Source: Candidatus Desantisiibacteriota bacterium (lineage in GTDB: Bacteria > JACRDZ01). From it: DNA of 20,129 bases. The position numbers and the translations under genes were made by a program. The stretch lies in NCBI GenBank assembly GCA_016209155.1, contig JACQWU010000105.1, positions 1 through 20,129 of the forward strand, given 5' to 3'. Within the stretch, counting starts at the first letter, position 1. Each line of letters opens with the position of its first letter. Under the pieces are notes generated by a model. It was not told the DNA's origin. It was given only the letters and a program-made list of their open reading frames with translations, and did not search any database. This document shows positions 12,096 to 18,244 of the stretch, one piece after another.

Positions 12096-13025
12096 ATGAA
12101 ACCAGTAAAAGCCACTTCAAAAAAACACAAGGAAAGAGAGCTTGTAATTATACGCTTATTTGACGCACCGCGTGAAATTGTGTGGAAGGCGTGGACCGAA
12201 CCAGAACGACTTAAACGCTGGTGGGGCCCTAAATATTTTACATCGTCAATCTATAATATTAACCTTCGGGTTGGAGGAGAATATTTCAGCAATATGCGCT
12301 CGCCCGAAGGCAAAGAAATCTGGGGTAAAGGTGTTTTCCTCGAAATCGATGCGCCTTTGCGTCTGGTAATGACTGATTCTTTTGCGGACAAACACGGCAA
12401 CATAGTTCCCTCGACATACTACGGTATGGAAGATTTTCCGTTAGAAATGCAGATAGCAGTTTCGTTTGAGGAACAGGAAGGTAAAACAAAGCTGACTTTG
12501 AAACATTCAGATATTTCTGGCATTAGCGCTGTTGACCTGAAAAATATGAAAATCGGATGGAACCAGTCTTTTGATAAGCTTGCTGAATCTTTTATGATAA
12601 AACTAAACACTTACCTCAATTTTGCGGGCAATACAGAAGAAGCTTTCAACTTTTACAAGTCCATTTTTGGCGGAGAATTTACATCTGTCATAAGATTTAA
12701 AGATATGCCTATGGAGGGTGTAAACATCCCTAAAAAGGAAGAAAATAAAATTCTGCACATAGGTTTACCAATTGGGAAATACAACGTTCTAATGGCGACC
12801 GATACACTTGAATCAATGGGACAAAAATTAGTACAAGGAAACAACGTTTACATTTCGGTTCATCCGGGGAGCAAGGAAGAGGCAGACAAAATATTTAATT
12901 CTTTATCTGCCGGCGGCACGATAGAAATGCCCATCGCCGACCAGCCATGGGGTGATTATTACGGAAGTTTCAGGGACAAATTCGGGATCCAATGGATGGT
13001 GGATTACGGTTATCCAAAAAAGTGA
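12096..13025 (+). CDS. AHSA1/SRPBCC domain fused to PhnB-like VOC domain protein
   Basis: This 309-residue protein joins two small domains that are usually separate proteins. Residues about 13-165 are an AHSA1-type SRPBCC (START-like) fold: LVIIRLFDAPREIVWKAW, PERLKRWWGP, RVGGEY, a central FLEIDAPLRL strand, and the helix WNQSFDKLAES. Residues 167-309 are a PhnB-like VOC (glyoxalase-fold) domain: LNTYLNFAGNTEEAFNFY, SIFGGEF, MATD, VYISV, EADKIF and a final DKFGIQWMVDY. Met167 (ATG at 12594) sits exactly where a stand-alone VOC protein would begin, so the fusion looks like loss of a stop between adjacent genes. Exact function is unknown; such proteins bind small molecules. GGAGG at 12086-12090 supports the start. 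Codon choice looks somewhat richer in G and C than in the dcw genes, hinting at transfer. Confidence 0.85.
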   Translation: MKPVKATSKKHKERELVIIRLFDAPREIVWKAWTEPERLKRWWGPKYFTSSIYNINLRVGGEYFSNMRSPEGKEIWGKGVFLEIDAPLRLVMTDSFADKHGNIVPSTYYGMEDFPLEMQIAVSFEEQEGKTKLTLKHSDISGISAVDLKNMKIGWNQSFDKLAESFMIKLNTYLNFAGNTEEAFNFYKSIFGGEFTSVIRFKDMPMEGVNIPKKEENKILHIGLPIGKYNVLMATDTLESMGQKLVQGNNVYISVHPGSKEEADKIFNSLSAGGTIEMPIADQPWGDYYGSFRDKFGIQWMVDYGYPKK

Positions 13026-13413: not shown

Positions 13414-13451
13414 TTTATTAACTGAATCTTATGCAAGATTCAGTTAATAAA
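13414..13451. promoter_or_regulatory. Perfect 17-bp-arm palindrome upstream of pstS
   Basis: The left arm, TTTATTAACTGAATCTT (13414-13430), is the exact reverse complement of 13435-13451, with a four-base loop ATGC. It lies 33 bases before the pstS start and just upstream of the AGGAGG site. It has no downstream T-run on the + strand, so it is not an ordinary terminator for that direction. It could be a 5' stabilising hairpin of the operon mRNA or a dyad operator. Confidence 0.75.
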
Positions 13452-13484
13452 AAACTAAATTATAATTATGAGGAGGATTGTTTT

Positions 13485-14285
13485 ATGTTTAAAAAAATTT
13501 ATATATGTATCTTTTTGCTGCTTTTGCCGGTAGTTTTATTCTCCGGTTGCGGGAAAAAATCGGAGAATATTACACTTGCAGGGTCCACCGCATTTCAGCC
13601 TTTTGCCGAGAAACTGGCTGAAGAATACATGAAAAAAAATGCTGGCGTTAGCATAAACGTGCAGGGCGGCGGTTCCAGCATGGGAATCCAATCGGCAATT
13701 TCAGGAGTAGCCAATATCGGAATGGCGGATATGGTGGCGCTTCCTCCCGAAGCAAATACACTTAAACAGTATGTTGTTGCCAGAGACGGTATTGTAATAA
13801 TTATTCACCCGTCTAATACTATCAGCAATTTAACAACACAGCAGGCACAAAAAATATTCAGCGGTGAAATTACAAACTGGCAGGAAGTAGGAGGAGAAAA
13901 TAAAAAAATAACTATTATCTCACGTGAAGAAGGCTCAGGTACGCGCACTTCCTTTCATGCTCTGCTGCTGCAAGATATAAAACTTACGTCCAATGCCCTT
14001 ATTCAGGAATCAAACGGAACTGTAAGAGAAAATGTAAGTTCAGATCCCGGAGCAATCGGATATATCTCACATGGGATGGTTAATGAAAAAGTTAAAGTAA
14101 TCAGTCTGGACGGAATAGAACCGACAACTGAAAATACCAGAACCGGAGCATACCGTCTAATTAGACCTATATATCTTTTAACCAAAAGTGAACCAATGGG
14201 GCTTGCAAAAAGTTTTATAGATTATATTTTAAGCAGTGATGGACAGGGGATTATTGAATCATCGGGATTATTCTCTGCTAAGTAA
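13485..14285 (+). CDS. pstS: PstS, phosphate-binding lipoprotein of the Pst ABC transporter
   Basis: PstS captures inorganic phosphate outside the inner membrane and delivers it to PstC/PstA. The 266-residue precursor begins with a lipoprotein signal (Lys-rich start, hydrophobic core, lipobox LFSGC, so Cys at about residue 21 is lipidated). The binding-protein features are AGSTAFQPFAEKLAEEY, GGGSSMGIQSA, NIGMAD (its Asp aligns with the phosphate-binding Asp of E. coli PstS), FSGEITNWQEVGG and SREEGSGTRTSF. ATG 13485 is chosen because AGGAGG (13471-13476) and the signal peptide fit; the frame stays open back to an ATG at 13431 in the palindrome loop, which would disrupt the signal. First gene of the pst operon. 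Confidence 0.95.
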   Translation: MFKKIYICIFLLLLPVVLFSGCGKKSENITLAGSTAFQPFAEKLAEEYMKKNAGVSINVQGGGSSMGIQSAISGVANIGMADMVALPPEANTLKQYVVARDGIVIIIHPSNTISNLTTQQAQKIFSGEITNWQEVGGENKKITIISREEGSGTRTSFHALLLQDIKLTSNALIQESNGTVRENVSSDPGAIGYISHGMVNEKVKVISLDGIEPTTENTRTGAYRLIRPIYLLTKSEPMGLAKSFIDYILSSDGQGIIESSGLFSAK

Positions 14286-14310: not shown

Positions 14311-15207
14311 ATGTTTGTTAAAGATAATATGTCCACAAAAGATAAATTGATTACTTGTGTTATATACACAGTAGCATTTTCTGCTATATCTATTCTTCTT
14401 TTAATAACTATCTTTATTTTCAGAAAAGGAGCGCCTTTAATATTTAAAATAGGAATTCCTAATTTTATAATGAATAAAACATGGGCTCCTCTTGGGTCGC
14501 AGTATGGGATTTTTTCTATGATAATGGGAACTATCTGGATAACTGCCGGAGCAATGATAATAGGTATTCCGCTTGGGGTGTCATGTTCAATTTATCTGGT
14601 AGAATATGCACCTCTTATTATAAGAAAAATATTGAAACCCATTATAGAACTTCTTGCCGGAATTCCCTCAGTAGTATATGGTTTTATAGGAGTTGTTATG
14701 CTGGCACCTTTTATAAGAATTCACATGGGAGGACCAGGACTTTCCGTACTTGCAGGATCGATAATCCTCGGAATTATGATACTTCCTACAATAGTCGGGA
14801 TTTCAATTGATACGCTGCAGGCAGTGCCGAATTCCTACCGTGAAGGGGCACTGGCACTTGGGGCAACAAAATGGCAGAGTATATATAAAGTTGTTCTTCC
14901 TGCTGCCCGTAACGGAATCATTGCAAGTATCATATTGGGGATGGGACGGGCAATCGGCGAAACAATGGCTGTAATAATGGTTACGGGAAACTCGGCAAAT
15001 GTGCCTCATTCTATTCTTGATCCTGTAAGGACACTCACTTCAAATATCGCGCTTGAAATGGGTTATGCAACAGGAGATCATCAGCAGGCTCTTTTTTCAA
15101 CAGGAATAGTTCTTTTTATCTTTATTATGATAATTAATACAAATCATTTGTTAAAAATTTACTTTTATTATCTACTTTATTTACCATTGCAATTCTTTGT
15201 TTTATAA
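14311..15207 (+). CDS. pstC: PstC, phosphate ABC transporter permease (abnormal C terminus)
   Basis: PstC is one of the two membrane permeases of the phosphate importer. Six hydrophobic segments are visible, with IPLGVSCSIYLVEYAP, LLAGIPSVVYGFIG, ILPTIVGIS and the coupling EAA loop SYREGALALGATKWQSIYKVVLPAA, then GRAIGETMAVIMVTGN. The 298-residue frame looks normal up to FIFIMIIN near 15137. The last 20 or so residues (NHLLKIYFYYLLYLPLQFF) are read out of phase over DNA that, in the -1 frame, encodes the first membrane segment of PstA. The true PstC tail thus appears lost or fused. AAAGG at 14298-14302 supports the start. Confidence 0.9.
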   Translation: MFVKDNMSTKDKLITCVIYTVAFSAISILLLITIFIFRKGAPLIFKIGIPNFIMNKTWAPLGSQYGIFSMIMGTIWITAGAMIIGIPLGVSCSIYLVEYAPLIIRKILKPIIELLAGIPSVVYGFIGVVMLAPFIRIHMGGPGLSVLAGSIILGIMILPTIVGISIDTLQAVPNSYREGALALGATKWQSIYKVVLPAARNGIIASIILGMGRAIGETMAVIMVTGNSANVPHSILDPVRTLTSNIALEMGYATGDHQQALFSTGIVLFIFIMIINTNHLLKIYFYYLLYLPLQFFVL

Positions 15208-15275
15208 TTTTTTTCATTTTAAAAAAAGGACTGCCCATTATAACGTGGGATTTTCTTTTACAGTCACCTAAAGAC

Positions 15276-15953
15276 ATGGGCAGAGCCGGAGGAATTTTCC
15301 CGACTATAATCGGTACAATTTTTATTGCCGTAATAGCAGTACTTATTTCCACTCCTCTCGGGGTATGCACCGCAATATTCCTGACCGAATATGCAAAAGA
15401 AGGAATTATGACAAAAATCGTGCGTTTTGGGTCTGAATGTCTTGCAGGTATACCTTCTATTATATTTGGACTTTTCGGGTTTGTACTGTTTGTTGAGTAT
15501 CTGCATTTCGGATGGTCAATACTTTCCGGAAGTCTCACTTTAAGTTTCATGATACTTCCTACAATAATCCGTACAACAGAAGAAGCGATTAAAGCTGTCC
15601 CCTACTCTTTTCGTGAAGTAAGTTATTCCCTGGGAGCAACTAAATGGCAGACTATTAAAAAAGTTGTTCTACCCGGCGCTCTTCCGGGGATAGTCACAGG
15701 AGTTATTCTTGGTATTGGCCGCAGTGTCGGAGAAACTGCCGCTGTAATTTTTACTGCCGGCGGTTCTTTAAATATTCCTTCTTCTATTTTTGACTCGTCC
15801 AGAACGATGTCGGTGCATTTTTATATTCTGGCAAGAGAAGGTATTTCAATGAACAATGCTTATGGTACTGCCGCAATTTTAGTTATATCAATACTGCTGA
15901 TAAATTTTTTTGCATATTGGATTATGCATAAAGTTACAGCCAAGTATTCATAA
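15276..15953 (+). CDS. pstA: PstA, phosphate ABC transporter permease (5' end uncertain)
   Basis: PstA is the second permease of the Pst importer. From ATG 15276 the 225 residues show GGIFPTIIGT, STPLGVCTAIFLTEYAKEG, LAGIPSIIFGLFG, the EAA coupling loop SFREVSYSLGATKWQTIKKVVLPGA and GRSVGETAAVIFTAGG. Homology continues upstream in the same frame from about 15138: a first membrane helix (STLFTIAILCFIIFFIL) and KKGLPIITWDFLLQSP, as expected for PstA. However, that frame has no ATG, GTG or TTG between its stop at 15135-15137 and 15276. No ribosome site precedes 15276, and starting there removes membrane segment 1. Either a single-base error or shift fuses PstC to PstA, a non-standard start is used, or the gene is damaged. 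Confidence 0.85.
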   Translation: MGRAGGIFPTIIGTIFIAVIAVLISTPLGVCTAIFLTEYAKEGIMTKIVRFGSECLAGIPSIIFGLFGFVLFVEYLHFGWSILSGSLTLSFMILPTIIRTTEEAIKAVPYSFREVSYSLGATKWQTIKKVVLPGALPGIVTGVILGIGRSVGETAAVIFTAGGSLNIPSSIFDSSRTMSVHFYILAREGISMNNAYGTAAILVISILLINFFAYWIMHKVTAKYS

Positions 15954-16033: not shown

Positions 16034-16783
16034 ATGAATATTAAAATTTCGGCAAATAATTTATCCGCATATTTTGGCAAAAAAAATACACTTAAAAATA
16101 TTAATCTTAATGTGTATTGCAATGAAATTATGGCAATCATCGGTCCTGCCGGAAGCGGAAAAACAACTTTTCTTCGTTCTATAAACAGGCTCAATGATTT
16201 AAGCAATGATTTTTCATATAAAGGGAATCTGCTTTTGGACGGAGAAGATGTATACAATATTAAACCTGAAATATTAAGACGCAGGGTCGGAATGGTTTTC
16301 GCAATGCCCAGACCCCTTCCTCGTTCTATATATGAAAATATTGTTTACGGTCCAAAACTTGCGGGGACAGCTTCAAAAAGTGATTTAAATGCACTTGTTG
16401 AAAAATCTTTAAAATCCGCCTTTTTATGGGATGAAGTTAAAGACCGGCTTAATACATCGGCGATGAAGCTATCCGGCGGTCAGCAGCAAAGACTTTGCAT
16501 TGCAAGAACGCTTGCTTTGAGACCCGAGGTAATTCTTCTTGATGAGCCATGTTCCGGACTTGACCCTATTTCAACAGCCAAAATAGAAGAAGCGATGCAA
16601 ATATTAAAAAAGGAATATACTTTTATAATTGTTACAAATAATACAAAACAGGCGGCAAGGGTAAGTGATAATGTTGCATTTTTTTTAATGGGTGAATTAA
16701 TTGAATATAACTCTGCACAAAATATTTTCACTATACCAGAGGACAAAAGAACCGATGATTATATCTCAGGGAGATTTGGATAA
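16034..16783 (+). CDS. pstB: PstB1, Pst ATPase with Q-loop and H-switch substitutions
   Basis: PstB is the cytoplasmic ATPase driving phosphate import. This 249-residue copy has Walker [10 protein letters not shown] (37-45), an intact signature LSGGQQQR (146-153), Walker B VILLDEP (166-172) with the catalytic Glu, and D-loop SGLDP. Two residues normally invariant are changed. The Q-loop, normally VFQRPNPFP in PstB, reads VFAMPRPLP, so Gln is Ala90 (codon 16301-16303). The switch His is Asn202 (VTNNTKQA, codon 16637-16639). The frame is undamaged, and family landmarks such as the ISGRFG C terminus are kept. It overlaps pstB2 by one base (TAATG). The pattern suggests a non-catalytic half-site partner. 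The ribosome site before ATG 16034 is weak (AAGAAAGAA). Confidence 0.93.
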
Positions 16784-17538
16784 TGGCAGATCGTTTATAT
16801 GTTAAAAATTTAAATTTTTGTTACGGATCTTTTCATGCTTTAAAAAATATCAATGTCGGTTTTAAAGATAAGACTATTACTGCCTTGATCGGTCCATCAG
16901 GATGCGGGAAAAGCACACTCTTGAGATGTTTGAATAGAATGAATGATCTTATTGAAGGAATAAAAATTACAGGTAATATATTTCTGGACGAACAGGATGT
17001 ATTAAGTAAAAAAACCGATCTCATTAGTTTGAGAAAAAGAGTGGGGATGGTATTTCAAAGACCAAATCCTTTCCCTCTTACCATATATGAAAACGTTTCT
17101 TTCGGATTGGAAGTTCATGGGGTAAATAATAAAGCACAAATAGAGCATATAGTGGAAAAAAGTTTAAAAGATGCATGGTTGTGGGATGATCTAAAAGACA
17201 AACTTTCACACCCTGCGCTGTCTATTCCTCTTGATCAGCAGCAGAGACTATGTATAGCAAGACTTCTGGCAGTCGAGCCGGAAGTTATTTTAATGGATGA
17301 GCCATGTTCTTCTTTAGATCCGATATCTACAATGAAAATCGAGGAGTTGATGTTTGAATTAAAAAAGAAATATTCAATTGTCATAGTTACACACAATATG
17401 CAGCAGGCAGCCCGTATTTCACAGTATTCCGGATTTCTGCTTATGGGAGAAATGATTGAATTTGACGAAACTTCAACAATTTTTACCAATCCAAAAAATC
17501 AGAAAACCCAGGATTATATAACAGGAAGATTTGGATGA
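16783..17538 (+). CDS. pstB: PstB2, Pst ATPase lacking the LSGGQ signature
   Basis: Second ATPase of the operon, 251 residues. Walker [10 protein letters not shown] (37-45), Q-loop VFQRPNPFP with Gln92, Walker B VILMDEP (168-174), D-loop SSLDP and switch His204 (IVTHNMQQA) are all intact and canonical for PstB. The ABC signature is not: the family sequence [13 protein letters not shown] reads [13 protein letters not shown], so residues 148-151 are Ile-Pro-Leu-Asp (codons 17224-17235). The flanking QQQRLCIAR is untouched, and there is no frameshift. Since each ATP site of an ABC dimer combines Walker/Q/H elements of one subunit with the signature of the other, PstB2 would form a full site with PstB1 but not with itself. 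Confidence 0.93.
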
Positions 17539-17560
17539 AAACAAGAAAAGGAGTCAGATA

Positions 17561-18244
17561 ATGGAAAGATATTTTGATGAAGAGTTAAAAGACCTAAAGG
17601 ATAAAATTTTGTATATGGGAAATCGTGTAGAAATAATGGTGCAGGACTCCCTGACAGGATTTAAGGAACGCCAGAATAATATACTGCAAAAGGTTTTTGA
17701 ACATGAAAAAGAAGTAAATCGTCTTCATATTGAGATTGATGATTTATGCTTAAAACTTATGGCTTTAAGACAACCAATGGCCGCAGATCTGCGTTTTATT
17801 ACTGGTGTAATGAAAATAAATAACAATCTCGAACGTATGGGTGATCAGGCAGTAAATATATCACAAAATACACTTGAATTAATTAAACATCCAGAATACG
17901 AAACACTACTGAATCTTGATAATATGTCAGACATTGTAAAAAAAATGGTTAGAGGGTCACTTGATGCTTTTGTAAAAAAAGATACTGTCCTTGCTCAGGA
18001 AATATTATTGAAAGACGATACTGTGGATAATCTTAAAGCCAAAATCTTTCAGGAACTTTTAACTAAACTTAAAAACGCTCCGTCTATTGAAGTAAATCAC
18101 ATATTTGAGCTGATTCTTATTTCCCGTAATCTGGAAAGAATTGCCGATCATGCAACAAATATATGCGAGGATGTAATTTTTATGGTGCTGGGAAAAGATA
18201 TCAGACATCACCATACAGAAATTGATGAGAAACCAATAAACTGA
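17561..18244 (+). CDS. phoU: PhoU, phosphate-signalling regulator
   Basis: PhoU is a cytoplasmic all-helical, metal-binding protein that couples the Pst transporter to the phosphate-sensing kinase and limits uptake. The 227 residues form two three-helix repeats, each with the acidic metal-binding pattern: NNLERMGDQAVNISQNT in the first and RNLERIADHATNICEDVIFM in the second. Start ATG 17561 follows AAAGGAG (17547-17553); the frame is open back to a TTG at 17531 inside pstB2, which is less likely. It is the last gene of the operon. Its presence suggests control by a PhoR/PhoB-type system, which is not in the window. Confidence 0.95.
   Translation: MERYFDEELKDLKDKILYMGNRVEIMVQDSLTGFKERQNNILQKVFEHEKEVNRLHIEIDDLCLKLMALRQPMAADLRFITGVMKINNNLERMGDQAVNISQNTLELIKHPEYETLLNLDNMSDIVKKMVRGSLDAFVKKDTVLAQEILLKDDTVDNLKAKIFQELLTKLKNAPSIEVNHIFELILISRNLERIADHATNICEDVIFMVLGKDIRHHHTEIDEKPIN

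Follow-up and report, generated by a model that had tools for sequence, protein, structure and literature searches.

How much ATP is spent per substrate, and whether the two ATP sites of an importer are equivalent, are long-standing questions, and textbooks present Pst as an importer whose two ATP sites are equal. The locus studied here lies in a 20,129-nucleotide stretch of DNA (the window) from a Candidatus Desantisiibacteriota bacterium. In it, two adjacent ATPase genes are encoded together with pstS, pstC, pstA, and phoU, and neither ATPase has the full ABC motif set: PstB1 is without the Q-loop Gln (Q) and the switch His (H), and PstB2 is without LSGGQ. Do two such incomplete ATPases make up a single motor and, if so, with how many complete ATP sites?

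Two Adjacent PstB ATPases with Complementary Motif Losses

The operon comprises the following features.

13431..14285, + strand: pstS, phosphate-binding lipoprotein-like protein (TIGR02136; relatives with the same operon order)
14311..15207, + strand: pstC permease (TIGR02138), with coupling helix REGALALGATKW
14839-14874, + strand: pstC coupling helix (EAA motif)
15138..15953, + strand: pstA permease open frame (by homology), with coupling helix REVSYSLGATKW
16034..16783, + strand: pstB1, ATPase of 249 aa, signature intact, Q-loop Gln and switch His lost
16783..17538, + strand: pstB2, ATPase of 251 aa, Walker A/B, Q, and H intact, signature lost
17531..18244, + strand: phoU, phosphate signalling protein (TIGR02135)

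The stop codon of pstB1 and the start codon of pstB2 overlap as TAATG. Both products exceed the 343.2-bit NCBIfam cut-off of the PstB family (TIGR00972), with scores of 346.1 bits for PstB1 and 380.4 bits for PstB2, and annotation labels both as ordinary PstB. Their diagnostic codons are as follows.

16301..16303, + strand: PstB1 codon 90, Ala replacing the Q-loop Gln
16469..16483, + strand: PstB1 codons 146-150, LSGGQ intact
16637..16639, + strand: PstB1 codon 202, Asn replacing the switch His, within VTNN
17056..17058, + strand: PstB2 codon 92, Q-loop Gln kept
17224..17238, + strand: PstB2 codons 148-152, IPLDQ replacing LSGGQ
17392..17394, + strand: PstB2 codon 204, switch His kept, within VTHN

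The original prediction for this locus had named these residues (Ala90, 146-150, and Asn202 in PstB1; Gln92, 148-152, and His204 in PstB2) and had described both reading frames (16034-16783 and 16783-17538) as intact; all of this proved correct. It had also held that the changes are confined to the motifs, which is not so: PstB1-type proteins carry further fixed changes beside them, which relative to canonical PstB are Walker A Cys→Ser, Q-loop Phe→Leu, D-loop Ala→Gly, and Met-Gln→Thr-Lys after the switch residue.

The Same Division of Losses in Relatives

A PstB1 query against public genome contigs yielded 80 loci. Where a locus is long enough to include both genes, PstB1 is almost always followed by a gene of the PstB2 type with the same division of losses. 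The sequences tallied below were typed as PstB1 or PstB2 by the tallied motifs themselves, so the informative points are those that typing did not impose, namely the SGGQ of PstB1, the adjacent partner, the acidic residue of PstB2, and the clades recovered free of the motifs. The tallied sequences also share history, and the counts overstate independent support: in PstB1 (n = 94), H is replaced by Asn in 94/94 and Q by Ala in 92 and by Asp in 2, while SGGQ is intact in all 94; in PstB2 (n = 84), Q and H are each present in 84/84, and the fourth signature position is Asp in 40, Glu in 40, Tyr in 4, and Gly in none. The second signature position of the same 84 proteins is Pro (46), Ser (33), or Thr (5), and the third is Leu in 63 and Gly in 8, with other residues in the remainder. 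The Walker A Lys and the Walker B Asp-Glu are kept in both types (94/94 and 84/84). At the A-loop aromatic position, PstB1 is relaxed and PstB2 has Tyr in 84/84 sequences, which points to the same asymmetry. Every reference canonical PstB drawn from these surveys has the complete set of motifs (63/63).

The relatives with a pstB pair thus divide the Q-loop, His, and signature losses as the original prediction had anticipated, and canonical motifs were not seen in the pair. Independent assemblies carry the same residue states, and none of the sequence-based checks that were made against this prediction overturned it. The titles of the locus records, which can be wrong for metagenome bins, name at least 15 phyla, among them Omnitrophota, Verrucomicrobiota, Ignavibacteriota, Bacteroidota, Spirochaetota, Planctomycetota, Kiritimatiellota, and Thermodesulfobacteriota; the lineages with the pair are mostly uncultured. 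The asymmetric residue states also occur in one single-cell genome (L109). The order PstS-PstC-PstA-PstB1-PstB2-PhoU is conserved among the relatives, and in many loci pstB1 and pstB2 overlap by 1 or 4 bases, which fits equimolar synthesis.

Some genomes keep the canonical and the asymmetric designs side by side. In L054, L074, L094, L096, L100, L101, L102, L121, and L211, the asymmetric operon is immediately preceded by a canonical pst operon with a single PstB. The genome of the window also carries another pst operon (L043, G000:C125:1-9000), with a single PstB that reads LSIGQ and has Q and H intact. One very divergent pst cluster (L040, G042:C35:4000-15000) has three ATPases with long tree branches: a PstB1-like protein (Q→P, H→N), a PstB2-like protein (LQLEQ), and a third, preceded by a weak PstA-like match, in which Q is kept, the signature reads LSNGQ, and H is replaced by Asn.

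A Putative Heterodimer with One Complete ATP Site

Each site of an ABC dimer is built from Walker A/B and the A-, Q-, and H-loops of one domain and the signature of the other (PMC7756269); by this rule, the motif states give a PstB1-PstB2 dimer one complete site. Across all 94 PstB1 and 84 PstB2 sequences, every motif loss falls on one composite site of such a pairing, in agreement with the original prediction. On these sequence grounds, we consider it very probable that the pair belongs to a Pst importer with an obligate PstB1-PstB2 heterodimer, in which one ATP site is competent and the other degenerate. The operon would encode a Pst-type importer with high affinity for phosphate, PstS-PstC-PstA-PstB1-PstB2, whose two ATPases would be specialised paralogues that work only as the heterodimer. 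On closure of the dimer, the LSGGQ of PstB1 would meet Walker A/B, Q, and H of PstB2 to form the complete site, which would hydrolyse ATP; in the second, degenerate site, Walker A/B of PstB1, without Q and H, would face a PstB2 signature with Asp or Glu at position 4, and this site would at most bind nucleotide and prop the dimer. A homodimer of either protein would have no complete site. The predicted cycle would hydrolyse one ATP, and each ATPase would be permanently matched to a single permease subunit.

The acidic fourth signature residue of PstB2 stands at what we take to be the position of CFTR G551D (CFTR numbering). In CFTR, G551D severely reduces ATP-dependent gating (PMC10202470). 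In the degenerate site of MRP1, the H-loop His matters little for transport, and altering the Q-loop has similar effects at either site (PMC7756269). The Walker Lys and Glu retained in PstB1 suggest that its site still binds nucleotide, and the same Walker A Lys and Walker B Glu may leave it some activity.

Taken further, this retention would allow a PstC-PstA-PstB1-PstB2 importer in which both sites hydrolyse ATP and the changed residues are functionally replaced. The invariance of the Walker A Lys and Walker B Asp-Glu in both proteins is what such an arrangement would need, and the degenerate sites of classical exporters often alter the Walker B Glu too (PMC7756269). However, Q, H, and the signature are lost together on one composite site and always on the same side, and the severe effect of G551D at the corresponding CFTR position argues in the same direction, so we regard two active sites as unlikely and a single competent site in the heterodimer as the better account of the pair. 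An AlphaFold2 model of a read-through B1-B2 chain from L046 (9 paired rows) has both domains folded (pLDDT 82.5); its pTM of 0.49 does not fix the relative placement of the domains, and the model was not used as evidence.

A broader proposal may be stated tentatively, and we give it somewhat less than even weight: the pair could mark a deeply conserved class, spread over many phyla, of type I (solute-binding-protein-dependent) importers with a one-ATP site, in which the acidic residue of PstB2 would block the second site, phosphate uptake would run at one ATP per cycle or be gated unlike that of E. coli Pst, and each ATPase would be dedicated to one permease.

Comparison with Known Systems

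By homology the pair belongs to the PstB family, and by inference it would work like an asymmetric ABC transporter. It shares its subunits, operon order, and PhoU with canonical PstSCAB of the E. coli type, which uses a PstB homodimer, but has two non-equivalent specialised ATPases and has lost one composite ATP site. Firmicutes likewise have pst operons with two adjacent pstB genes (E. faecalis PstB1/PstB2, B. subtilis PstBA/PstBB); the E. faecalis proteins have unequal roles, as shown genetically (PMC12096839), and a model of B. subtilis Pst contains a PstBA-PstBB pair (PMC11466899). The adjacent E. faecalis PstBs are both canonical, whereas each member of the window pair has motif losses, and the window pair is not of the Firmicutes tandem-PstB type.

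The heterodimeric exporters TM287/288, TAP, BmrCD, and MsRv1273c/72c likewise combine one consensus and one degenerate site, as the putative Pst heterodimer would, and in exporter heterodimers the signature change lies on one subunit and the catalytic changes lie on the other (PMC7756269, PMC12038006). In those exporters, however, membrane and ATPase domains are fused and the Walker B Glu is often altered, whereas the Pst pair keeps the Walker B Glu, loses Q and H, and serves a solute-binding-protein-dependent importer. The fused-ATPase type II importers RbsA and NupO also have one degenerate ATP site (PMC11466899). Both ATPase domains of RbsA/NupO lie in one polypeptide whose second Walker A is without Lys, and the transporter class differs from Pst; the Pst pair, in contrast, is encoded by separate genes with Walker A intact. 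In the open-access literature we found no published degenerate site in a Pst importer, which does not in itself prove novelty. If confirmed, the pair would mean that the degenerate-site design arose in phosphate importers too, besides exporters and RbsA-type importers. It also offers a mechanism for the unequal roles of tandem PstBs, which were unstudied before the E. faecalis work, according to its authors (PMC12096839). As the two sites are split into separate genes with fixed complementary losses, the equivalence of an importer's sites becomes a question open to one-gene changes.

Co-Occurrence of the Two Types and Changes in the Permeases

We surveyed 386 genomes from about 260 families with PstB1 and PstB2 profiles; typing covered high-scoring matches only, and the counts exclude G042, the divergent genome with three ATPases. 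PstB1 is present in 19 of the 386 genomes and PstB2 in exactly those 19, and no genome with a single type was found among the high-scoring matches. Most PstB1-type matches separate in score from canonical PstB; one divergent pair (G256) scores among the top canonical PstBs and was identified from its motifs. G238 at first seemed to have PstB2 but no PstB1; its PstB1 is in fact cut at a contig end, and the remaining part shows VTNN. In G333 the pair is unlinked: PstB1 accompanies pstC-pstA on one of contigs 52 and 57 (L203, L209), with no neighbouring pstS, pstB2, or phoU, and PstB2 lies on the other, alone amid unrelated genes. Both proteins keep their residue states, which argues that PstB1 and PstB2 are retained as mutual partners rather than simply inherited together, and also argues against co-occurrence as a mere gene-neighbour artefact. 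Distances among PstB1 sequences correlate with those among their PstB2 partners (r = 0.80 over 83 pairs; permutation maximum 0.18), as expected for co-travelling partners, although shared ancestry alone also contributes to this value.

These observations bear on whether PstB1 and PstB2 act in separate transporters, each pairing with a canonical PstB encoded elsewhere, or whether one of them is a regulator outside the motor, such as a PhoU docking subunit. A canonical partner is at hand where a canonical pst operon adjoins (L054, L074, L094, and L121), and in E. faecalis, with its two adjacent canonical proteins, PstB2 is required for import and PstB1 is accessory (PMC12096839). Yet PstB1 and PstB2 are the sole ATPases in many relative operons that have their own PstS, PstC, PstA, and PhoU, their defects are complementary in every pair, and their co-occurrence is strict even when they are unlinked, with partner distances that agree. 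Separate transporters therefore seem improbable to us, slightly more so than two active sites, and the obligate heterodimer remains the preferred reading.

The permeases of the pair operons differ from canonical ones in their coupling motifs: the EAA coupling motif of PstA changes from E-A to E-V in 91% and reads E-V-S (REVSYSLGATKW in the window), and no other position along PstA is as type-specific. The same coupling position of PstC is always Gly in pair operons, versus 80% Ala in canonical ones, and the motif reads E-G-[AS]. These changes could fit ATPases that have settled under particular permeases; shared ancestry could also explain them.

Evolutionary History and the State of the Window Copy

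For tree building, the columns of the Q-loop, signature, and switch were excluded. In an 80-sequence tree, PstB1 forms one clade (100/100) and PstB2 forms one clade (99/94), and a 131-sequence quick tree agrees, bar one outlying sequence. With one clade per type in the absence of the motif columns, each loss appears to have arisen once, long ago, and to have persisted. A sister relationship of PstB1 and PstB2 through one tandem duplication is not supported by the tree, in which the canonical PstB of G018 (L041) falls beside the PstB2 clade (98/82); PstB2 may instead derive from a canonical PstB after PstB1 had split off, in a tree whose root is unplaced. In the closest pairs, dN/dS is 0.02-0.15 for PstB1 and 0.01-0.22 for PstB2, far from the value near 1 that the original prediction had set against its own reading; more distant pairs suffer from saturation, and no weight was placed on their dN/dS.

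The chance that a decaying pseudogene or sequencing errors in a metagenome assembly explain the pair is negligible: the window genome is fragmentary (3.08 Mb, 352 contigs, 78.8% complete) and its pstA is without a normal start, but the same states stand in about 95 PstB1s from independent assemblies across at least 15 named phyla and in the single-cell genome, with dN/dS well below 1 and frames intact, so that conservation and dN/dS refute decay or error for the PstB1/PstB2 family and bear out the earlier argument against random decay.

The pstA problem concerns the window copy of the operon. No ATG, GTG, or TTG stands where homology to PstA begins, and the first in-frame ATG is at 15276 (window 15100-15280); a start there would cost the first membrane helix, and homology extends upstream of it. 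The C-terminal tail of pstC diverges from its relatives at the same spot. The pstC/pstA boundary in the window looks compressed or frame-shifted, with sequencing error and real change indistinguishable, and in view of the pstA start problem this operon copy may have suffered damage or misassembly. Upstream of pstS, a single open reading frame (12096-13025), whose translation was read by eye, apparently joins an AHSA1/START-like domain to a PhnB/glyoxalase-like domain.
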